From Polytrichum commune (taxonomy: Eukaryota; Streptophyta; Polytrichopsida; Polytrichales; Polytrichaceae): a stretch of DNA of 64,000 nucleotides. Location: assembly GCA_950295325.1 (NCBI GenBank), contig OX485806.1, forward strand, positions 10,664,001 through 10,728,000. The letters are read 5' to 3'. This document shows, piece by piece, positions 386 to 59,500 of this stretch. Position 1 is the first letter of the stretch. The number at the start of each line of letters is the position of its first letter. A model generated the notes under the pieces. The model saw only the letters and a list, made by a program, of their open reading frames with translations, was not told the origin of the DNA and ran no database searches. A program made the position numbers and the translations under genes.

Positions 386-3300
386 TCAGAAACTCCTTGG
401 GGTTGGGGGCTTGTCTCCTGCCAAGTTAACTCTTAGCTGCCTTCCGTCATAATCCTGTGCAACACACCCAAATATGAGAACAAACCTTGGCATTCCTCCG
501 GTCATAATAAATATCAAACACTCCTAAATAATCATCTTCTAGTGATCTCAGGGCAGCAAGCAACACAAATAAGAAAGTAAGAACACAGGGCACTTACAGC
601 TCCATCAAGCTTTTCAATGGCTTCATTCACTTCTGAGGCTTTCTCGAAGGTTACAAAACCAAATCCTCGTGACCTCCCTGATTCTCTATCGTGCACAACC
701 TTGGCATCCAAAACATTGCCGTAGTCTGAAAACAGTTGCCCAAGGCTTGAATCATCTACACTCCAGGCTAGGTTTCCAACAAATAGTTTGTTAGGGTTGT
801 TGTAGCTGCCACCCCTGCTAGCACCACCGTAGCCTCCCTCAGTCCTGGGAGGTCTTTCACTCCTAAAGTTGTTTGTCCGGGGTTCCCTGTTAGATTGTGG
901 GAAGTTTACCTTCAAAGCCCTTCCTTCCATTTCCTGAAACAATAAATTCCAAATGCTTAAGAAGATAGAAAAACTGCAAATCATTATTCCTTTTGTTTCA
1001 CCACCCTAAATCACTACAAAATATAGTTCCTCACTATTACAAATACTTAGGTGTATTTGAAGCCATTAACATCACACAACCAGAAGTTCTTTAAAGTAAA
1101 AATACAGCGAGCACCTTTACAGGTAGGGACAATTGACTGAGATAAGTGAAAGTAGTGGCCATAACATCTGCATTGGAACTGACATGATGGAAACTGGATA
1201 AAGCTAGAACAGCAACCTTTTACTATCCATCTTTGATATAAGACAGATTTTGCATCAGTATTAACATTCAGATTTTTGAAAGGCCAGGAAACAACTTACA
1301 AATCCGTCCAACTTAGCAATTGCCTCTTGTGCGTCCTTATTGGAGGACATGGTGGCGAAAGCGTATCCCCTACTTCTTCCGGTGTCTCTGTCATAGATAA
1401 CCTGTTGGGTACATGCCACATTGTAACAATTACTTCCCACAACGCACAGAAAAGCACAGATGGGATTACAAGATTTGCAGACATGGGAATAACACGTAAT
1501 TTACTGAAATCGCTCTCAGACACAGAGTGCAACCTATGGCCAGGACTGTAATGGCAATGCCCTCACTTCTCCTAAAATACTAGGGGTTGGACATATTTCC
1601 CACCTAGGGGCAAACCATGTTATAGGTAGAATAATAATAATAGTTCTACCAAGAACGAATGCTGATATCAGCTACGTTGCTAAAGAATAACTTGAGGAAC
1701 ATGTAGGATATCCAAAGCTACGCAAAAACTTGGTCACTCTCCAAAACCAGTGGACCTCAGAAACGGGTCAAAGTATGGATATAGATTTGTTACATTGCCT
1801 CTGCTTGGAAAAGACGGCGCATGTAAGTAGAAAGGAGGTACTTTCAACATCTCCTCTCGTCAGGAAAATTTGTCTTCCATGAGGCAGCACAAAGGACATT
1901 GTCTAGCCTAACAACAAAAATTGGCATGTGACCAGTAGGACTTATACAATCTCGCAAAGAACACATGTCAGTTTAAAACAGCGAGAGAACAAGGTCGGAT
2001 TACGGACGGCACTAGGCACTAGAATTTGGCTACTCAAGTTTCAACATGTCATCTCGCCAGGAGAATTCAACTTCTATAAGGCAGCACAAAGGACATTGTC
2101 TCGCCTACCAATGATTATTGACTTGTGACAGTAGAACGACATCTACTCATGCAGCATGTCGGAGTTAATATCCGCAAGAAACAGAACACCGACATGCGGG
2201 TAGGTCAAAGCCAGCAGCACCTCGACAAGCTCAACCTTGCCAAAGTCTTTGAGGTAGGTAATAGAAATAAGGTACTAGAGCATCGACGTTATTCTCGTCA
2301 GAATGATTTTAACTTCTATGAGATGCACAAAAACATTGTCTCACCTAACACTGAAAATCGATACATAACCGGTAGAAAACATTGAACATAGCAAAAGAAA
2401 AGCACATAAGCCAGAATTGATATCGGCAGAACTATGAAGGCAAGCAGCACCTCGACAAGCTCAATCTCTCCGACGTCTTCAAGATAAGACTAGAAAGGGA
2501 GTACTAGAGCTTCAATTTAACTTCTACAGGGCGACAGTAAGCACATTGTCTCGCCTAGCAATGAAAATTGACATATGACCAACAGAACTTGTCGAATATC
2601 GCTAAGAAGAACACAGATGCCGGACTTAATGTCAGCAAGAAACAAAATAGATACATGCAACTATGAAGGCGGGCAGCACTTCAACAAGCTCGACCTCGCC
2701 GACGTCTTCGAGGGAGGTAATACAAAGGAGGTACTAAAACTTCCACGTGTCATCTTGACAGATGAGTTTAACTTCTATGAGGCGGCACAAACTTAAACAA
2801 TGTCTCGCCTAACCATATGAAACTGACATATGACCATTAGAACTTGTCGAAGTGCACAGATGCCAGAGTAAATACCAGCCAGAAGCACAACAACAACGAG
2901 CAGCACGTCGCCGCCGTCTTCGAGTTAGATACTAGATAGAAAGTACCATTGCTTTGACGTGTCTTCTTGACGGAAAAAATTAACTTCTATGAGGTGGAAC
3001 AGAGGAAACCGCTAACAATCAAAATTGACATATGACACGTAGAAAACATCCAATATCGCAAAGATGAACACAAATGCCAGGCTTCAATAATATCAGGAAA
3101 CAAGAACAAAGGGCAACGCAGCTTGTGAAGCTGTTTCATCAAGTGTGCAATTGTGACAAGACTTGAATAAGAAGCCCCGGCTAACTCCGTACCAGCAGCC
3201 GCGGTAAGACGGGGGCCTAGACATGGCACTTTGAAGGCAAGCAGCACCTTGTCAACCTCGCCGACGCCTTCGAGGTACGCACTAAAGCTTCAATGTATCT

Positions 3301-3887
3301 TCCCGACAGGAAAATTTAACCCCTACAAGGCGGCAGAGAGGACATTGTCTCCCCTAACACCGAAATTTGGCGTCTGACCAGTAGAACTTCTCGAATATCG
3401 CAATAGAAGAGCACATGCAGACACCTGAGTTGATATCAATAAGATATACGACAACGACATGCAACTATAGGAAAGCGAGGGGCGGTACCTCGACAAGCTC
3501 AACCTCGCCGACATCTTGCAGCACTTCCGCGAGGATTTGGCTGTTGCAGCTCCACGGCAAGTTTCCAATGTAAAGCTTGGAGCCTTCCTCAGGAGAAGGG
3601 GAGCGAGGGGCGCTCTCCTCCGCGGGGGCCTCCACGGTCTCCTCAGCCGCGGGTGCCGATTCGTAATCCAAGTCTGCAGCCCTGGCGATGATAGAAGCGT
3701 TCAAATTCAAACCCGACCTCCTGGCGAGAGACAGGCTCAGAAAGCTACAAGACACGGCCGCTGAGGTCACAGAGGGTGCTGCCATGCTCAAATGGGCACC
3801 ATTCTTGGTCGCGTTTGTCTCGGACCGCATTGCTACGGCGGACAACCGCGTGCCGGCCACAGCCATGGTCATCCTTGCGGCCGCCAT
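386..3887 (-). CDS. Chloroplast ribonucleoprotein with two RRM domains (cp28/cp29/cp31 family)
   Basis: Spliced gene; exons on the minus strand are 3887-3489, 1401-1300, 933-598 and 454-386, all joined in phase 0, giving 301 aa. Seen: an N-terminal Ala/Ser/Thr/Arg-rich stretch of about 65 aa fitting a plastid transit peptide, then an acidic Ala/Glu/Pro linker. RRM1 has RNP2 LYIGNL and RNP1 RGYAFATM; RRM2 has RNP2 LFVGNL and RNP1 RGFGFVTF. A Gly/Arg/Asn-rich spacer separates them and the protein ends PPTPRSF. Known of the family: these stroma proteins bind plastid transcripts and support RNA stability, processing and C-to-U editing. The order transit peptide, acidic domain, RRM, spacer, RRM is diagnostic. 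All four junctions have GT-AG ends, including the donor GAG/gtaccg after exon 1. The start at 3887 is the first ATG of the open frame and begins the leader. Oddity: intron 1 (1402-3488) is a tandem repeat array carrying copies of the end of exon 1. Which cp-RNP paralogue this is cannot be settled here. Confidence 0.95.
1790..3488 (-). repeat. Tandem array in intron 1 carrying copies of the exon-1 end and donor site
   Basis: About six to seven decayed units with a period of roughly 230-245 bp fill most of the intron; one unit is longer because of an insertion. On the plus strand each unit contains a segment like GCAGCACCTCGACAAGCTC followed by AACCTCGCCGACGTCTTCGA. Copies lie near 2208, 2443, 2670, 2898 and 3239. 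The living copy is the end of exon 1 at 3481-3525. Other parts of the unit recur in step: AGGACATTGTCTCGCCTA, GAATTTAACTTCTATGAGGC, and GACATATGACCAGTAGAAC. In gene sense each unit therefore repeats the codons before the exon-1 boundary and a potential GT donor (GAG/gtgctg in copies, GAG/gtaccg in the real site). Copies near 1810-2050 are the most eroded. Confidence 0.85.
3161..3221 (+). other. Short insert of mitochondrial-type small-subunit rRNA (530-loop segment)
   Basis: The stretch contains CCCCGGCTAACTCCGT, then CCAGCAGCCGCGGTAAGACG and a following G run. These are the universal 530 loop of bacterial-type small-subunit rRNA. The AAGACGGGGG ending is, from memory, the plant mitochondrial 18S form rather than the usual bacterial AATACGG or plastid form. 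One position differs inside the universal core (CCGTACCAGC instead of CCGTGCCAGC). The match is only about 60 bp and sits inside one unit of the intronic array, making that unit longer than its neighbours. It is most likely a nuclear insertion of organellar DNA, not an rRNA gene. Confidence 0.75.
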
Positions 3888-4784: not shown

Positions 4785-5140
4785 GAATAGTATGTGGGTT
4801 TTGTGAGGTCACTCTTCCTAATTAGACACCTTACTTTATGTTGTATACCACAAGGTTGTAGTTTAAGAAATGGACACCCAAAAGACACATGCTACGATGA
4901 GGTTGGACCTTGTGCTCAAAGCATAGACATAACTTTAGGCTCAACGGCTAGAACACAATTTGGAAGGGCCTATGTGATAGCTTAACAAGAAACACATTTT
5001 GCACTACATACTTTTATAACTTTTGCACGCAAAAAACACATGTTATAATGAGATTGGACTTTGTGCTCAAAAATATAGACACCATATTGAGCTTAATAAT
5101 TAAAAGATGGAAGAATCTATGTGATTCTTTAAAGAGAAAA
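4785..5140 (+). repeat. Dispersed repeat family containing TGTGAGGTCACTCTTCCTAA
   Basis: The unit reads, with changes, a TTTGTGAGGTCACTCTTCC head, then ATTGGACACCTATATTTGAG, then AAGACATGTGTTACAATGAG, ATTGGACCTTGTGCTCAAA, and a tail around TTGGGAGGGTCTATGTGAT. Related copies occur near 4440, 5665, 7085, 15810-15990, 27580-27670 and inside NOC4 at 60020-60240. No open frame is shared between copies, so this looks like a non-coding mobile repeat; termini are not clear enough to classify it. Confidence 0.6.
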
Positions 5141-5381
5141 AGAATTTGCACCATGGACTCTTGTAACTTCTAAACCTTTACTTTGATTCTGAAACTTCAA
5201 AATGATAATCTTTGTGACACAAAATTATTAACCAAATGAGATGATTCTTGAGTTGATCCAACTCAGCAACCAACACACAATACATGCCATGCAAAAGCTC
5301 TACCTCATGCACAAAACTAGCAACCAATAAGATATAGTCCACCTACAATAAAGGCCATCACATGAAACCCAACTGAAGAAC

Positions 5382-5408
5382 TATATATATATATATATAT
5401 ATATATAT
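5382..5408. repeat. (AT)n microsatellite
   Basis: Uninterrupted AT dinucleotide run of about 13 units in intergenic DNA. Confidence 0.95.
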
Positions 5409-8400
5409 GAATGAAATGTATCCACCATCTTCTCAAAGTGTAGAATTGACACTTGCAACAATGTTGACTCTTACCATGCTTGGTATGGTCATGTCTAACT
5501 TAACCCCCTTGCATACCCCTCAATGTAATCCCTTGCCACATCATCCATCAAGCAAGAAGAAAATCCATGTGCCTTCTTTTTGCATATATTGCAATCTTTC
5601 ACATGTGGAGAATCTATTTGCCTTCCAAGCACATCCCAATAATAACTTTTTGTAGACATAAGGTATGTGAGCTTTGTGTGATCACTTTTCTTGATCTGAC
5701 ACATGTTTATGTGGTATCTATATGGAAAGGCTTATAGTTTAAATTGGGCACAAAAAAGACATGTGTTACAATGAGATTGGACCATTTGATCATATAATTT
5801 TTTTTCCATTTCAACCTTTGTTTTAAAACTTAACATGTGTGATTCTACAATTGTTATCATATGAGATAGTTCTCAATCTCATCCCATGGTCCAAATTCTA
5901 TTGTGTAGTTGGAAATACACACAATAGGGTCATGAATTTTACCTTGATTCAACCACTCCCTTTTGCATCCATTGCAAATATTCACATGCCAAGGGGAAAA
6001 TAACATAAATTTCATGTTCTTGCATCGACGAAGAAGATTATCGTTCTCCTTATATTGATAACGAGTATCCATGATGCATGCTGAAGGTGAATTGCTTGCC
6101 TCCCTTTAAGAAGGTGGGCTTTGTGAGGTCATGGGACAGTGGGGGTGTCACATGTGCTTGTCCACAATCAAGCTTTCTTATAGTCTGGATTAAGAAATTT
6201 GAGATGTTTTATGACATTTTGGCACGGGGGGGGGGGTCACTCCATTGTCAAGTTGAACACCACGTGCGACCAAAAAAATCTTCTTTTGGTAAGTTGCACC
6301 ACCAAAATGGGTCAAAATTTTATCAAATTTTTTTCATGAGTAGATATACACAGTACCTATGACATAGTTAAAAGTGGTAACTAAATTTGATGATTTGTTT
6401 TTTTCATAAAACATACCGTTTCTAACTAGAATGACACAGAATTGAACTAAAACAAATACTAAAAAAAATAAAGATAACTAAATATTTCAAAAAAATATAC
6501 GAAAGATACTATCAATGGTTATGTATATGTAGAAAAAATATCATAAATTTTAAATTTATATATGGCATGTAATATAGGGGTAGCAAACTTTGTCCGCACA
6601 TGGTGTCAACTTGACAATGAAGTGACCTCCCCGTGCATTTTGGTGTTTGGATTTCATTAGATTTTTGATGGTGGGTTTAAGAATGTTGAGATCTTTGAAT
6701 TTCACAAGGGAATTTTGATGTATGGCACCTTGTACTCGTACCATGATGATTATTGAAGTTTACTTTCCATCATTTTTTTTCTTCTTCTTCTTAAATGCAT
6801 CTATCAATGAGTCATATTTTCTACATTTATTTTCAACATATGTCTATGGATGTTGGTGGTGGCAACGCGAATTTAATAAATAATATTTAGAGTGAGGGGA
6901 GTGGGGTGGTGGTGTTTGATGTTGATTTTGGGCACCCGTTTATGCATGCATTATGAGTATTATAGTATTTACATCACAAACTTAAGCCGTTCTCTCACAT
7001 TGGCATGCCCCACTACAAGAGATTTGAAGACACACATGTAAGTTGGATTGGTCCATGTGTGAATGGGGCTTTAACTTGATTCTTGGGACCGTTATTGAAA
7101 CTTGATATATCAGCACCACTTATATGCAAGGCTCATAGTTAAGATACGGAATAGACACGTGTTAGAATAATAATGGATCGTGTGCTCTAAATATGTTAAA
7201 CATTTTTAGGTTTGATAGTTTACACAAGTGGGAGCGTCTATGCAGTGGTTAAATGCTCAAGCCTCCATATTCCATTTTCGGGCATTTTCATCACCAATGC
7301 TAAAAAATTATGTTATGTAGAAAATTACACTCATATTATGGAAAATCCGACCGTACAAGTGCGAACTAGATTACTATATATTGTTGTTGTGAAATTTTGA
7401 AGTCTATCAGACCACATTTGCTAGGTTAGATTGATATTTGAAAATTGACTTCAAGAGGGGGGGGGGGTAGCCCTAATTTATTTGGAGCTTTCCATTTGAT
7501 GCCATCTTTGGTGAAGGTAAACATTTTCGGAAGTTGGAAATTTGGCCATAACATGTTATGTGCTTGTCAAAAGAGTTGTTCCCAACAATTTGACTTATTT
7601 GGATGAGATGTAGATGAGGTTTGTCGCCCTCAAAGTTGAAGGGCCAAATAAGGACATTTTTGTAGATGTAGCCTTTGACCATGATGGATAATCCCTTAGA
7701 CTCAAAATTAGCCAAATCCATGTGGTGGAGTCATGCACATCCATGCTCTTGAAGTGTGGAAAAACATTTGGCCAAGTTGGACATGCTATGACTAAGTTTA
7801 AGGCTCCAAAGTGAAGAATTATAGTAGGTGCCCTTTGGGTAGCTACAAAGGGAGTTAGCATGCCCAAAATTTCCCGGGATAATGTCAAGGCCACATGGGT
7901 CCAAGCCCTAACACCGACCTCCCCAACTCTAGGGCTATAGCCTCCCCCTTCAGCATGGTTCTACAACATGCCTGCCTAACATGAAGGTCTACCCAAGGAG
8001 ATTTGACTGATATTTACATATGAACATGTTGAGCTACCCCCCCCCCCCTCCCAAGCGATGGGTGCCACTTGGGTCCCAAGATGTGATCCATGCTCCCCTT
8101 TCTAGAGCAAACCATTTCAAGGCCTTTTTTGCGTTGTTTGGCTTTGGGCACCATCTTGGCAACTCATAGAAACACTGCCAAATCAAGTAGTGCCAATCTT
8201 TGCAAAAATCCCTCACAGTTGGAGTACTAGGTTTTTTAGATGAATTTTGGCCCACATGGTAGTAGGCACCACCCTTCACCAGTAGATACCTTCCATTCAC
8301 ATAGATTGCCACTTAGTGGGTTGCAAACCCCATATGAATATTAAGGGCAATCCATTTTCGTTGCTTGAGCACTTAAGGGTCAAGGAGAAGGAGAGCCTTT

Positions 8401-24086: not shown

Positions 24087-25610
24087 GTCTCTACTACGCT
24101 AACAGATGTGTTCTTCCTCTGCAAAAGTCAATACAAAAACACAGCCTCAGGAACATCAGCAACGTTACGTATGTTATGTCAAGTGTCTTCACACCTCTGC
24201 CACTTGTCCCATCACAACAAACCTCACGACTTCCAAGGAGATTGATCATACAACAATTTCTGACAACAGAGGGTTTGTTGACCCCTGTTTCTCCACCTCA
24301 TAGTCTCGGATGCAACAAATAGCCTGTTCGCAATGTTTTACATTCAAATTAAGAGACAATCAAAGTGGCTTCAGCTGAAGAAACATCAAACATTCCGTGC
24401 TTTTTGGCTTGGAGTGCCTCAAAAACATTTGATTAGCTAACAGCTGGAACTCTCTGTGGCGTATCTTCAATCCAGACATGCGAATGAATGGTTTGGCATG
24501 GTAATCTTGTAAGAAGGAAATTATCAATAAAAAGAAATAAAGAGCCATCAACTACAGTAAAGAAATTGCTTCTATAGAACAAATCTAATAAAAAACGGTC
24601 TCAGGAAAAACAAGGGTAGTTGGAATATCAAGTATCTTCAAACCTATACCAAGCGTCTCACAACAAATCTCAAGACCTCCAACGAGAGAGATCATACAAC
24701 AATTTCTGAAAACAGAGGGTTTGTTAACCCCTGTTTCTCCACCTCGTAGTATCGGATGCAACAATCAAATAGCCTGTTCGTAATGTTTTGCGTTAAAATT
24801 AAGAGACAACCAAAGTGCTTCCAGCTGGAGAAACATTAATAATACCGCGCTCCGCGGCTTAGCATGCATCAGAAATTGAATAATTGGTTTTCAGCTGGGA
24901 ACTATCTATAGCATATCTTCAATACGGACACGCGAATGAATGTTGTGGCATGGTACTCTTGTAGCAGGAAATTTCTCCATGAAGGGAAGAAAAGAGGCCT
25001 CAAATACAACGAAGAGGATCGCTTCGTCTCATCATCACTTGATTTAATTTGCTTCCTCTCCGCAGAAGTTATGATGTTTTTATATCTCCGGTGATTCTTT
25101 TGCGGCAGACCAAGATGCAAACACACACGACCTAAACGTAGAGGAAACTCTCAATACTCAAAGCCAAAATCCTTCTCTTGCAAATTTCGATTGCAATGTG
25201 GTGCATCAAACCGTCACAATAAAGCATAACGAAGAAATCAGGTTCCACCGAACACTCATCGGCCAATCAGGTAGTAGAAACTAAAACAGATTACTTTCTG
25301 CTTCATAAGCTCAAAATTTCACATCCATTCCAAATTTACAGCAACCACTTACAGAAGCTGCGGATTGCAGGGCAGAAAATGCCAAACAGCGGCTCCAGAA
25401 CCCGAGAAAGAAAAAAACTGGAGGTGATTCAGTGGAGCACATTGAAATGTAAGAGGTTCTTCTTTATAGATTTCGTTTTGCAATGCAAACCTGTGTCAAT
25501 TGGAGGGCTGCGTGCAAATCGGAGTCCAAAATGGCTGCCCCTCGCTCGCTTGCTCCTTCGTCTGCCTTCATTTCTTCACCACAACGAGCCACTCTCTCAC
25601 ACAGCTTGAC
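24087..25610 (-). promoter_or_regulatory. Leader exon, leader intron and promoter region of the aminotransferase gene
   Basis: Just upstream of the start codon the minus strand reads TTGACTTTTGCAG before 24118, a good 3' splice site. The segment 24087-24118 is then the end of the leader and an intron lies beyond it. The intron region contains a direct duplication of about 455 bp: 24145-24598 and 24599-25040 share CATACAACAATTTCTGA, ACAGAGGGTTTGTT, CCCCTGTTTCTCCACCTC, AATAGCCTGTTCG and CATGCGAATGAATG/CACGCGAATGAATG. A less AT-rich stretch at 25490-25610 is the likeliest place for the first leader exon, but no start site can be fixed. Confidence 0.5.
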
Positions 25611-29690: not shown

Positions 29691-31683
29691 CTTCACTCTT
29701 TTTCCCACAAAGAGAACATGATTGTACTACAGTAGGGGAGGGGGAGAAAACAACAACATCCTCTCCCGTCCACTGGACGGGACATAGATTCAGCGGACGG
29801 CCACCAACCATCCGTGTCAACCTGTTGGCCCCGCCACCCACGACCAGAGGACACAAGCCAGTGCTGGAGCCGCTCACCAGACGGCGTCCGGAGTCTGAAC
29901 CATCGTTATTGAGAAGGGGGGGCGGAAGCGGAGAACTTAGGTCGCCGTCCGTAGGTCGTGCGCCGCACTCCGCATCACCTACCCCGGCGTGGACTCACTG
30001 CAATGAATTCCTGAAACGGTGAAAGGGCTATTTGGAAGTTCCGTGGGCGCCATTCCGGGATTGCAACAAGGTTAGGGAGCTCTTGTATCTCTTGAAGAGC
30101 GTTCTGAAGAATCTCCTTGTGTTGGTGAGGAGAATCCTTTTCGGTGTCCTCCTTCAACAAGGCCGAAGGTACGAACTCTGTTCTGTGGTTGCCAAATTTG
30201 GTGGAGTTTGATTGCAATCTCCCTTTCTAAGGGCAATCTCCCTCTCTAAGTTTAAGGTATGCTGGAAGGTGTTTTCTGTACTTTGGAATTTTTTGTTCTT
30301 GGCTTGATCGATCGATTGAAGGAAATTACTCTGTTTCGTGGATGCCGAATTGGTGGAGTTGAGTGATTCTTCCGGAGGTGGCTGGGGAACGATGTTTCTT
30401 AATTTAGTGTGAGGTATCTTAGAAGGTGTGTCTAAACGTAGCAATCTGGTTTTCCTTTATCTTTATCACTTAATGCGTATACTAGTTGGATTGTAATTGG
30501 TTCATACTGTGTTGAGAGTCTTTGAAGTACGGAGGAGCTATTATTGCTTCTGTGAAGATAAGTAAACTGTCGTGTGACATTTTGTCTGTAGTTTGCTACT
30601 CGAGTATAGTGGGAGGTGTTACTGTAGTTTCGCATCTGGTGTTCTGTGCTTCATCATTCGATTCAATGAATGACTCGTGGATGTTGAACTGGTGGAGTTG
30701 AGTGATTCTTTCGGAGCCGACTGTGGAACGATGTTTCTTAATTGAGTGTGAGGTATATTAGGTGTTTCTAAGCGTAGAAATATGGTGTGCCTTCTGAAAT
30801 GCGTATAATAATTGGATTGTAATTGGTTCATACTGTGTTGAGAGCCTTTGAAGTACGGAGGAGCTATCATTGCTTCTGTGAAGATTAGTAAACTGTCATG
30901 TGGCAATTTGTCTTTAATTTGTCACTCGAGGTCGGGATTTCCGAGTGTAGTGGAAGGTGTTGCTATCGTTTGGAATGTCTTGTTCTTTGCTCCGTCGATT
31001 GAATGGAAGAGATTTGTTTTGTGGATGCCGAATTGGGTGGAGTTGAGTGATTCTTCCGAATCCGACTGTGGAACGGTCTTTGTTTAGTGTGAGGTGTTTT
31101 AGGGGGTATTGTAGGGGAGGTTTTTCTATGCGTTGAAATCTGGTGTACCTTCCTTGATGGGATGAAATTAAGAAATCTGTTCCCTGGATACCGAATTGGT
31201 CGACTTGAGGTCAACTGACTGTAGAACGGTGCTTTTAAGGCGTTTCTAGGCTTTGTAATTTGGTGCGCAATTATTTCATTCTTTGTTGAGAGTCTTTGGA
31301 GTACGGAGTAGCAACTAATGCTTTCTGTGAAGGTTAGTTAACTGGTCCTCTGGCATTGTGTCTGTAATTTGTCACTTGAGGTCGGGATTTCCGTGTCCGG
31401 GGTGCTTTTAGTAGTTGGAAATTCTTGTTCCTATAATCGGCAACTTTAGTTTTGCTTTTGTTCGTTCTTGATTTCTGTGTTCGCCAGCTGCTCAACGTTC
31501 GAATCTATGGCCTGATTGTCCATAGAAGAGTTAGTCCGCGTCTACAAAAAGAATAATTCGCATGAGCTTATGTTACCAATCTGCAGTCCTACCTCTGTCG
31601 ACAATCAAATTTTGCCATCATCGTGCCTTCATATAATTTCCTCTTACGGAACTGTTTTTTACAGGATCAAGCTATAGAGAAAG
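29691..31683 (+). promoter_or_regulatory. Promoter, leader and leader intron of ACLA, with a tandem array
   Basis: A GC-rich stretch at about 29740-30010 is the likely promoter and first leader exon. A 3' splice site TTTTTTACAG ends at 31664, 20 bp before the start codon, so the leader is interrupted by an intron of more than 1 kb. Inside it, 30170-31440 is a tandem array of about 340-bp units. Landmarks recur near 30180, 30340, 30680, 31020 and in part 31190: GTGGATGCCGAATTGGTGGA, GTTGAGTGATTCTTCCGGA, TAGTGTGAGGT and GTTGAGAGTCTTTGAAGTAC. Leader introns often raise expression in plants; whether the array matters is unknown. Confidence 0.6.
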
Positions 31684-49702: not shown

Positions 49703-50221
49703 GAGCAAGGAAGGAGTGTGAAAACCCATTAACAACGAGAAGTTGAGAAGTTGAGAATATGAAATCCATAAAGTGCAAAACGATTATGAAATTGATTTGA
49801 AAGATTGATGAAGTTGCTAGAGGTAAAAATCCAATATCATGAAATTGAGGTGTGCCACATATCAAGTTGGTTTATGAAAGTGATAATTTAGAAGGTTCAT
49901 GAAAGTGGTAAAACAATCTAGTAACATTCATTGGAATGTTCATGAACTAGCTTGGAACCTTCATGAAATTGAGTTTACACTCTTATGAAGTCATCCTAAC
50001 AAAGGAGTATAACCCGCATAAAATGGTTGAAATGGGACAAATTTATCATGAAATGGTGAAAAGTATCATGTAACTTTGAAGGTGCAAGTCAGAAGAATCG
50101 AATGATTTGTCAAGCTCTGCTCTGTCAAACCTGTTTAGGAAGGACAGGTTATCCTATAGTGTGATATTGAATGCTCAATGATTTATATAAATGTTAACAA
50201 AAAATTAACAACTCACCCTGA

Positions 50222-50712
50222 TAGAAACTTCTACATTAAGCACCAGGATTGCAGTGCCCTGCATTGTTCTGTACTTCAGAGAAAGCATGTTACATAATTC
50301 ATCAAGAGTCAGACATCAACGAACAAAGACAACAATTGAAGTAGTGACCCTCCTCAGATTGGACAGGACAAAACTGTACATTCATTTCCATCGCCAGCTA
50401 GGCACAGACACTTCACTCGATTCGTTGCTAAAGTGATTCATAAGAAGTATATGAGCAGTGGATGCCTGAGTTTCAAAAATAATGGTAACTTTGCTTAAAT
50501 TACAGAAAGTTTCTCCCACGATAGAAACTTCACTGGATTGGAGCACTAGAATTGTGGTGTCCTGCATTGCTCTGTACTTGTAAGAAACCATGTCACTTAA
50601 ATTCATTGGTGTCAGACACCACCAAACAAAGCACAACAGTTGAAGCAGTAAACCTTCTTCAGATTGGACAGGACGAAATTGTACACTCATTGCTGGCATC
50701 ACCAGCTAAGAA
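50222..50712. repeat. Tandem duplication, period about 300 bp
   Basis: 50222-50412 and 50522-50712 share GATAGAAACTTC, GTCCTGCATTG/GCCCTGCATTG, TTCTGTACTT/CTCTGTACTT, GTCAGACA, CAGATTGGACAGGAC and CCAGCTA. This lies at the edge of the possible gene region described next. Confidence 0.75.
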
Positions 50713-56554: not shown

Positions 56555-59500
56555 ATGGTAGCGATGCTAGGAGGAGGGCGAGAAAGCAAGAAACTGACCG
56601 AAACACGGAAACTGGGAAAAGAGCTTCTGGAGTCTCGAGCTCACGTCAACAATGCACCCCTCTTGATCGCCACCCTCGCCTCATCTCTCTCCGTTGATTC
56701 GCATTCTGCCTCCCCTAAGGCCCTCACAGAGGCACTTACCTCATTGGAGGCTTTCTTCATCCCCTTGGTGCAATCGGGTGAATTCACTCCTGCAGCGCAG
56801 AGGAAGGCTGACAAGGAGCTTCAGAACGCAAAGAAAGATGAGGAAAAAACAGAGGAGTCCGAGATGGCCAAGGCCGAAGCCATTTATAAGAAGTGGATTT
56901 GGGACCGGTATCGTGAGTTTGTTAGTACTATGTTGCGCTTTGTTGCTCGACATAGCGCCATACCTACTGTCCAGGTATGCTTTCCCGCTATTGTTGTGGG
57001 TTTAGGTAGATGGGCCTTATTTGGTAACTTTTTGGATTCGCGGGATTGAAATTTCTGTGCGTCCGGAAATGTATCTGAATAAGCCAGGATCAATTCTAGA
57101 ATTTTTTGGAGACAATTTCGAATTGTTATGAATCATCAAAGTCCACATAGGCTCCCCCCCACCCAATTATGTTGACTTTTGATCCTAGTATGTTCAATGA
57201 ATTTTTGACAAATTTTGTTACAACTATGCTGCGCTTTGTTGCTCGGTATAGCGCTGTACCTACATTCCAGGTATTTTTTTCAGCATTTTGTTTTGTATAG
57301 TTTGGCAGTTCCTTGCTAGGCAATTTGTAATGAGCTTAAAACCTTGGCAAGGTTTCTGTTCTGCAATGGTGCAATTGAGGGGCACTTTACACTAGAGCTT
57401 GAAGGGTTTTGATCATTGTAATCAACAATCTCTTATTGGTGGAAAATGGGGAGACCGACCGTCCCACCTCACTTTACACTAGAACTGGAGGGCCTTTGAG
57501 ACCAAGAAAGTTTGAATGGAATGAGCGTTTTGGTTCAGAGTTTGGCGTAAAACCTTAGCAAATTTTGTTTCTGCAATAGTGCAATTTGTGCACCATAATT
57601 TGGTCATTATGCTATACTTACAGTCCAGTCCCTTGTGAGGCAATCTGCAATGAGGTTTTTTGTTCAGAGTTTGGCATAAAACCTTGGCAAATTTTCTGTT
57701 TTGCAATGGTGCAATTAAGCACAATAATGTAGTAATTTTGCCATACCTACAGTCCAGGTATCTTTTTTGAGCATTTTTTCTATTGGGCAGTTCCTTGTGA
57801 GGGAATTTGCAAAGATCTTTATTTATTTATTGTTCAGAGCTTGGGTTAAACCTTGGCAAATCATGTATCTTGCAATGGTGCACTACACTGGAAAGCCTGT
57901 GACCACACAAAGTTCAATCTCAATTTTCCATGGTGTGGCCTTAACAACCATGGTTACGGTCCTTGGCCATAGTGTAAAGTGGGCTTGAGCACCATAATTT
58001 GGTAGTCTTTGTGAATCTGAAACAATTGTTATCTGGCAGACAGCTGCATTGCACACAATAATGGAGCTTGTACGAGCTGAAACAGATGGCGAGTTTAATA
58101 ACCAGCTCTACTTGAGGTTGTGCTTCACAATTGTAAGTATATCCTCCTCATATATTTGGCTGCTTCAGAAGAATCAATGTTTTTAATCAATGCATTTCTC
58201 ACAAAAGTAGTATGGAATTGCATTCTTTCTGTCTCTTGTAATTCTCAAAGTTATGGCTCTGAATGCATCACTTCATTTTATCTGGAATGTTTGAGATCAG
58301 AACTCTTACTTGTTGTATGGGAATAATGTATCCAAAGGAGGGTGGCTTGGAATTCAGGTTCTGAAAGAAGCAGTGATTTTTGCAGGTGTGCTCGAGAGGT
58401 TTAAATACCGATCTCCTTGCTGTTCTTGTGTCAGATTATTTCAAGTACTTAGATGTTTGGTAAGCACCAAACTGCCCGGTACCATCATAAAACAAAATGC
58501 AAGTAATTTGTCCTTCTCAAACTTGTGTCTCTGGATCCTGTAATGGTCTGTGAAACTGTTCAAGGAAACCTGTTTTTTTGCATAGTCGATTAAGAGCACA
58601 GTGAAATAAATTGTCCGAGTTGTGGAAAGTATTGAGGTTCACATATCATGTTTTGCATGGTGTGCAGTGTTTTTTTTTACTTACTGATATGAGCACATCT
58701 ATATTGTTTTTGAGGGAGTGGAAGGCTTGCACATCTAAAAACTTATTCTGAAGACAATCAGCCAAAATTTGTATTAATACTAATCTCAACATGTAATCAC
58801 CTACATATGGATTCCTTCAGAGAGATTAGAGGTGTACAGGAGACTTTACCCGACTTATGAACTCGAGATCAAATAAAATTGTATGAGAGCTGAGATACAT
58901 ATAGAGGATTCTAATGCATATGACAATATATGTATTTCTGATGGATGCAGTTACTACACTTACTCTAACATGGAGAAGATTGCCATCAGACGAGTTGCTA
59001 AAAAATCAACAGGTTCAGTGTTTCTATTTCTACTTTTTATGTCATTTATATTCTAGGGCACAATTAATTTACTGTTAATTAATGTCATTGAGAATTTTAT
59101 CAACTTGTTTCTGGTATGCTGTGCAGGGAATGACCTTATATCTAGTGATGATGAGGATGGAAGTAATATTGGTGTGACCAGGTACTATCCTTTTCATTTC
59201 TGTTTTTAAAGTTCACGTTAATAGTCTTTTACAGCCAATGGTGGAAAGTGAGGCAGAATGTCTGCAATTCTAACCTTGACATGATTAGTTCCTGATGGAT
59301 ACGAACTGTGCCATGCTGGCCTATTTCAATTGAGCTTGAAGTTGGAGTTTTTAGACCAATCATTTTGGTAATTCTGTTTTTTTGGGAGTGCAGTGTACAT
59401 GGCATGGTGCAGAACATTTATGATGTTTTGATGAATCTACCGGCATTTCCTAATGATGGGGATGTAACCAGTGACGAGCTTTGGTGTAACAATTTGAGTA

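Follow-up and report, generated by a model that had tools for sequence, protein, structure and literature searches.

The first intron of a predicted two-RRM, chloroplast-RNP-like gene contains seven direct, head-to-tail repeats of ~225 nt each (3522-1826, minus strand). Positions are those of the window, the whole 64,000-nt stretch of DNA that was analyzed. A full unit is composed of the final 34 nt of exon 1, the donor, and about 190-213 nt of intron. The array very probably results from an old tandem duplication across the exon-1/intron-1 boundary that was amplified, has since decayed more or less neutrally, and lengthened intron 1. Read in this way, the gene offers a clear-cut example of intron growth across the 5' boundary, in which several donor copies remain and the predicted coding structure is intact.

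Gene structure and paralogs

The coding part of exon 1 extends from the ATG at 3887 to 3489. It comprises 133 codons, ends in GTCGAG, and encodes an N-terminus that appears transit-peptide-like by eye, followed by the start of RRM1. The joined exons 1 and 2 read ...KLYIGNLPWSCNSQILAEVLQDVGEVELVE/VIYDRDTGRSRGYAFATM... (also ...VELVE/VIYDRDTGRSRGYAFATM...). This join restores a complete RRM and therefore sets the limits of intron 1 at 3488-1402. The predicted full protein has 301 aa, and RRM_1 matches it in two stretches (E 4.4e-41); it carries the two RRM domains that characterize the cpRNP family. From this layout and the transit-like N-terminus, we take the product to be a putative chloroplast RNP (cpRNP). 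The features of this part of the gene are as follows:

3489-3887, minus strand: coding part of exon 1, from the open frame and its translation, with the splice position found in paralogs P1 and P2
1402-3488, minus strand: intron 1, 2,087 nt, GTACCG...AACAG, from the exon 1/exon 2 join and the RRM_1 match in two stretches
1402-1825, minus strand: non-repeated remainder of intron 1, 424 nt to the acceptor, with none of the listed unit-HMM matches
1300-1401, minus strand: exon 2, from the join with exon 1

Two paralogs, P1 (C4:4.09 Mb) and P2 (C6:33.79 Mb), are predicted from their sequences. In both, an intron interrupts the coding sequence at the codon boundary used here, and only its length differs. 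The P1 intron has 1,300 nt and the donor GAG/GTGCCT; the P2 intron has 597 nt and the donor GAG/GTACGT. At the position of the exon-1 end, P1 and P2 encode DVGDVELVE and DAGNVELVE, respectively, and are predicted to splice there.

A repeat unit across the exon 1-intron 1 boundary

Units were cut at each exon-like start. As cut for alignment, U0 to U6 have lengths of 247, 351, 211, 229, 230, 224, and 193 nt. U1 is longest because an rRNA-like fragment is inserted in it.

3276-3522, minus strand: U0, with the true exon-1 end (3522-3489), the true donor (3488), and the first ~213 nt of the intron, from the unit alignment and HMM
2925-3275, minus strand: U1, exon-like segment with a 6-nt deletion, decoy AAG/GTGCTG at 3247, rRNA-like fragment within
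3101-3216, plus strand: SSU rRNA-like fragment within U1 (Rfam RF00177 at 37.3 bits and E 3e-9, short of the gathering score of 50)
2714-2924, minus strand: U2, exon-like segment shortened (14-column gap), GAC/GTGCTG at 2906
2485-2713, minus strand: U3, full exon-like segment, decoy GAA/GTGCTG at 2679
2255-2484, minus strand: U4, full exon-like segment, decoy GAG/GTGCTG at 2450
2031-2254, minus strand: U5, full exon-like segment, decoy GAG/GTGCTG at 2220
~1826-2030, minus strand: U6, intron part only, exon-like segment unrecognizable, HMM match of 132 bits to ~1826

The first-pass annotation had proposed at least five copies of the exon-1 end and its 5' splice site with a period near 240 bp. 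The copies are present, and the proposed period is roughly correct. U1-U5 repeat the 34-nt end of exon 1, which gives five extra copies, three of them full length (U3-U5), and the U4 segment is 90.3% identical to the exon end over 31 columns. In three of the six extra units (U1, U2, and U6), the exon part is shortened or lost. The U2 decoy at 2906 adjoins the deletion, and its register is uncertain. The unit HMM matches all seven units with 132-214 bits, as it must by construction, having been built from them. A possible eighth unit below 1837 did not align with the others and was left out of the counts. The segment at 3101-3216, which matches four other places in the genome at 75-97%, probably derives from an SSU rRNA gene of the bacterial type and is presumably of numt origin.

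The similarity is well beyond chance. When 3560-1401 is compared with itself, 18 direct-repeat pairs are found at E up to 0.01, led by two with E 7e-38 and 7e-32. In the alignment of 3517-3228 with 2708-2431, the similarity runs unbroken across the exon into the intron. The last 40 nt of exon 1 score 43 against the intron, a value reached by none of 300 shuffles (17.5 +/- 1.9, maximum 24). There are 266 pairs of repeated 8-mers separated by 60 nt or more, and shuffled sequence gives 48.9 +/- 9.5. As negative controls, the paralogous exon ends were compared with their own introns; P1 scores 15 (reached by 229 of 300 shuffles) and P2 scores 13 (244 of 300).

Diverged local repeats are not rare in the window. 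Among 22 diverged direct pairs (at least 60 columns, lag 100-900, E up to 1e-6), 10 lie in the array and 12 elsewhere. What is special is therefore the exon end inside the unit and not the array as such. The other diverged direct repeats are located at 4790-5792, 24176-25008, 30257-31396, 50220-50708, and 56918-57882, with lags of 129 to 873 nt.

At the sensitivity of the searches, the unit is restricted to its own intron. A search of the 408-Mb genome with U3 returned five matches, all of them within this intron, itself included. With the whole region, nine matches were returned: the region itself, two gene-fragment copies, the two exon-1 paralogs, and four places with the rRNA fragment. This search ignores very common words, and only its top candidates are scored. 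As a sensitivity control, the same kind of search with a dispersed piece of the P1 intron recovers that repeat at 73-83% identity. Over the P1 and P2 loci, the unit HMM finds the exon ends only, extending ~20 nt past the donor in P1; neither paralogous intron holds the unit. In the rest of the window, it gives two chance-level matches only (E 1.6 and 9.1). The unit is thus found only here, its exon part corresponds to homologous coding sequence in the paralogs, and the paralogous introns lack it, which together support the earlier proposal that the intron grew by repeated duplication across the exon-intron boundary.

History of the array

In the proposed history, the final ~34 nt of exon 1 plus the adjoining ~213 nt of intron 1 would first have been duplicated in tandem. 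The copies would then have been amplified to about seven. The upstream-most copy would have retained the true exon end and donor, and the downstream copies would have become intronic since splicing kept the first donor and the old acceptor. This would have taken intron 1 from ~0.64 kb to ~2.1 kb, after which point changes, deletions, and insertion of the rRNA-like, probably mitochondrial fragment would have eroded the exon-end and donor copies more or less neutrally. We infer this order of duplication, by unequal exchange or break repair, together with continued use of the first donor and the absence of function.

The 213-nt intron part of the unit and the 424-nt unique remainder add to 637 nt, close to the 597 nt of the P2 intron. 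The sum fits a short ancestral intron of ~0.64 kb that six additional units extended to 2.1 kb.

The array is old. Over 21 pairs of units, the K2P distance has a mean of 0.51 (range 0.35-0.87), and the identity of the intron parts is 0.52-0.73. Plant non-coding rates are 6.5e-9 to 1.3e-8 per site per year. By these generic plant rates, which may not be those of the host, the age of the array would be roughly 20-40 million years.

It had been suggested that the older copies lie deeper in the intron. The distances do not bear this out. Units deeper in the intron are not more distant from U0 (Spearman 0.03, n=6), nor are units that lie farther apart more diverged from one another (0.13, P 0.56). 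Trees of the units have a star-like shape, and their supports are 20-52%. This suggests that the array was built fairly quickly, or was shuffled later, rather than growing stepwise with the oldest copy deepest.

Decoy donors and conservation of the copies

The true donor is GAG/GTACCG, and GTGCTG is found in U1-U5. The first-pass annotation had assigned GAG/GTGCTG to each copy. The exact motif is found in two of the five, at 2450 and 2220; the other three begin with AAG (3247), GAA (2679), and GAC (2906). AG/GT is exact at 3247, 2450, and 2220. Donor strength was calculated as pairing with the 5' end of U1 snRNA among 180 GT sites. The true donor is weak, at -5.7 kcal/mol and rank 8. The decoys at 2450 and 2220 (-5.4 kcal/mol, rank 10) and at 3247 (-5.3, 12th) are close to it.

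These near-equal values invite a functional reading, in which the array would bind U1 snRNP, or decoy splicing would yield transcripts with premature stops that undergo nonsense-mediated decay, tuning expression. The retention of GTGCTGC in all five decoys speaks for it, as does the reading frame. Translation past GTCGAG at the end of exon 1 ends at the eighth codon, a stop that precedes all of the decoys. Any decoy would therefore give the same 140-aa truncated product and no longer protein. These frames were run exactly for 2906, 2679, 2450, and 2220, and for 3247 through two adjoining positions that are two to three bases off. The same stop rules out coding alternative first exons. The longer first exons once envisaged for this gene would thus have no open frame, and decoy donors are conceivable only as sites of non-productive splicing.

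A functional decoy array is nonetheless unlikely. Two of the decoys are weak, namely 2679 (-2.8 kcal/mol, rank 48) and 2906 (-0.6, rank 126), and the exon-like parts are shortened or lost in half of the extra units. Seven GT sites that are not decoys outscore the true donor. The strongest, at 2344 (minus strand, TTAG/GTGAGA, -9.5), is in U4, outside the exon-like segment. At the equivalent place, U2, U3, and U5 have GGCGAGA.

Whether the copies are conserved depends on how conservation is modeled. The exon-like segments of U3-U5 are 76-79% identical to one another, versus 57-68% for the rest of the unit. Across U1-U5, the exon-like block has a mean identity of 0.81, versus 0.65 for the rest, and 15 of 253 windows of equal length are as high, itself included; for U3-U5, the block ranks 35 of 177. 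Compared with the final 27 nt of the exon, the copies show 4, 2, and 7 distinct changes at codon positions 1, 2, and 3. This excess at third positions (7 of 13) is not significant (P 0.10).

GTGCTGC and TAGAAGTT are the sole blocks of at least 7 nt common to U1-U5. In star simulations with an assumed divergence of 0.16, 0.19, or 0.23 per lineage, two such blocks occur with P 0.122, 0.034, and 0.006, respectively; for a longest word of 8, P is 0.140, 0.064, or 0.012, depending on the assumed divergence. The word test ignores position; AGAAGTT in U0 sits elsewhere in the unit and so was not counted. In an aligned simulation (0.23), a run of 8 was found in 0 of 200 runs, with simulated copies that are less alike than the real ones (0.642 vs 0.690), and in 25% of runs the most conserved 34-column window equaled that of the real units. 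By column permutation, the count is 0 of 5,000; this test is anticonservative, as the alignment favors runs of matches. Together, these results give a weak, model-dependent hint of selection (P 0.006-0.12); this dependence on the model also counts against a functional decoy array. The closer likeness of the exon-like copies and the shared blocks weigh against purely neutral decay, and mild constraint or local gene conversion may be involved.

The strongest form of the functional reading is a ladder of five decoys, three of them nearly equal to the true donor, with the core GTGCTGC under selection, that would compete with this weak donor so that part of the transcripts end up in a premature-stop form. 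We regard this as very unlikely. If true, the length of the array would set the expression of an RNA-binding protein gene.

It is also very doubtful that the repeats are kept for intron-mediated enhancement, or for another DNA- or RNA-binding role of their non-exon part, with the donors as passengers. The shared words could be read in its favor, TAGAAGTT in U1-U5 and GAGACAATGT, which is common to U3-U5. To our knowledge, neither matches a known motif. No word of at least 6 nt is common to all seven units, and the paralogous introns do without the unit, both of which argue against such a role.

The array thus looks like an ordinary by-product of duplication and not a working device. It lends itself to a natural test of how the spliceosome settles on the first among near-equal donors and of how copies of an exon end decay once intronic.

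Dispersed repeats in the intron of paralog P1

Alternatively, the window intron might have received an unrelated insertion, a dispersed repeat or transposon that had tandem repeats within it; the similarity to the exon would then be due to chance or capture. Such an element does exist in the paralog P1. Intron 1 of P1 has its own array of four copies (C4:4091069-4091737), starting ~60 nt inside the intron. This array has 52 matches in the genome, itself included, with 40 of 1,216 candidates scored, and tandem groups are found at several places. The diverged local repeats elsewhere in the window could also be cited for this reading.

For the window intron, it is highly improbable. The genome searches with the whole region and with U3, together with the unit HMM, place the unit only in its own intron, and the similarity is continuous from the real exon into the intron in U0. 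In four dispersed copies of the P1 type, the unit HMM finds nothing better than E 6. Over the loci scanned, which include the dispersed P1 copies and the gene-fragment loci, it gives, beyond the exon ends of P1 and P2, one chance-level match (E 6.3, locus L012). A dispersed repeat, which had been named as the finding that would overturn the duplication account, therefore explains P1 and not the window intron.

A shared origin of the two arrays was considered and rejected. The P1 array is dispersed, starts ~60 nt into its intron, and has no similarity to the window unit. The similarity of the P1 intron to exon ends is at the level of chance, with the score for the P1 exon end reached by 229 of 300 shuffles and that for the window exon end by 125 of 300. 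The introns of two paralogs would thus have grown by different routes, one by self-duplication and the other by a dispersed repeat.

An assembly artifact has next to no chance of being the explanation: no supporting points were found, and the units differ at 27-48% of the sites in their intron parts and have private indels, which mis-assembly does not produce.

Relation to known cases

Tandem duplication across an intron-exon boundary is described for a potato gene, where it made a new intron that was confirmed by RNA-seq (PMC4974935). That duplication is single, involves the 3' end of intron 1 and the start of exon 2, and is younger than the split from other Solanum (PMC4974935). As in potato, the proposed duplication spans the boundary and turns a once-exonic stretch intronic. 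Unlike the potato event, the array described here is old, has six extra units, and lies at the 5' end, and an existing intron was lengthened with no new intron position seen.

In the Rogers model, a standard model of intron gain, exonic segments bearing AGGT are duplicated in tandem (PMC3443670). The segment described here likewise has AG/GT and supplies extra potential splice sites; unlike that of the model, it consists largely of intron sequence and has given rise to no new intron position. In Drosophila, near intron pairs and intronization after exon duplication have been described (PMC2891723). Duplicated exonic sequence inside an intron is common to both cases, whereas the intron position described here is unchanged relative to P1 and P2.

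No report of an intronic, donor-bearing array of exon ends in the cpRNP family was found in the literature covered, which included few subscription journals and is not evidence of absence. On present evidence, the array is a further example of a known process. It differs in direction (the 5' boundary), in copy number, and in outcome, with a longer intron and no new one.

Gene-fragment copies elsewhere in the genome

The two gene-fragment copies returned by the genome search are recent (99.3-99.4% identity) and correspond to window positions 788-1580 (the copy on C3) and 991-1580 (the copy on C6). The C3 copy contains the end of intron 1, exon 2, intron 2, and part of exon 3. Both copies are fused to the same further piece of 276 nt. 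Part of this piece is also found at C4:10661581-10661760, ~2.2 kb before the window, and C3 has two inverted, 100% identical copies of a 207-nt part of it, ~10 kb apart. From their sequence, the C3 and C6 copies look like the result of a recent capture by a mobile element.
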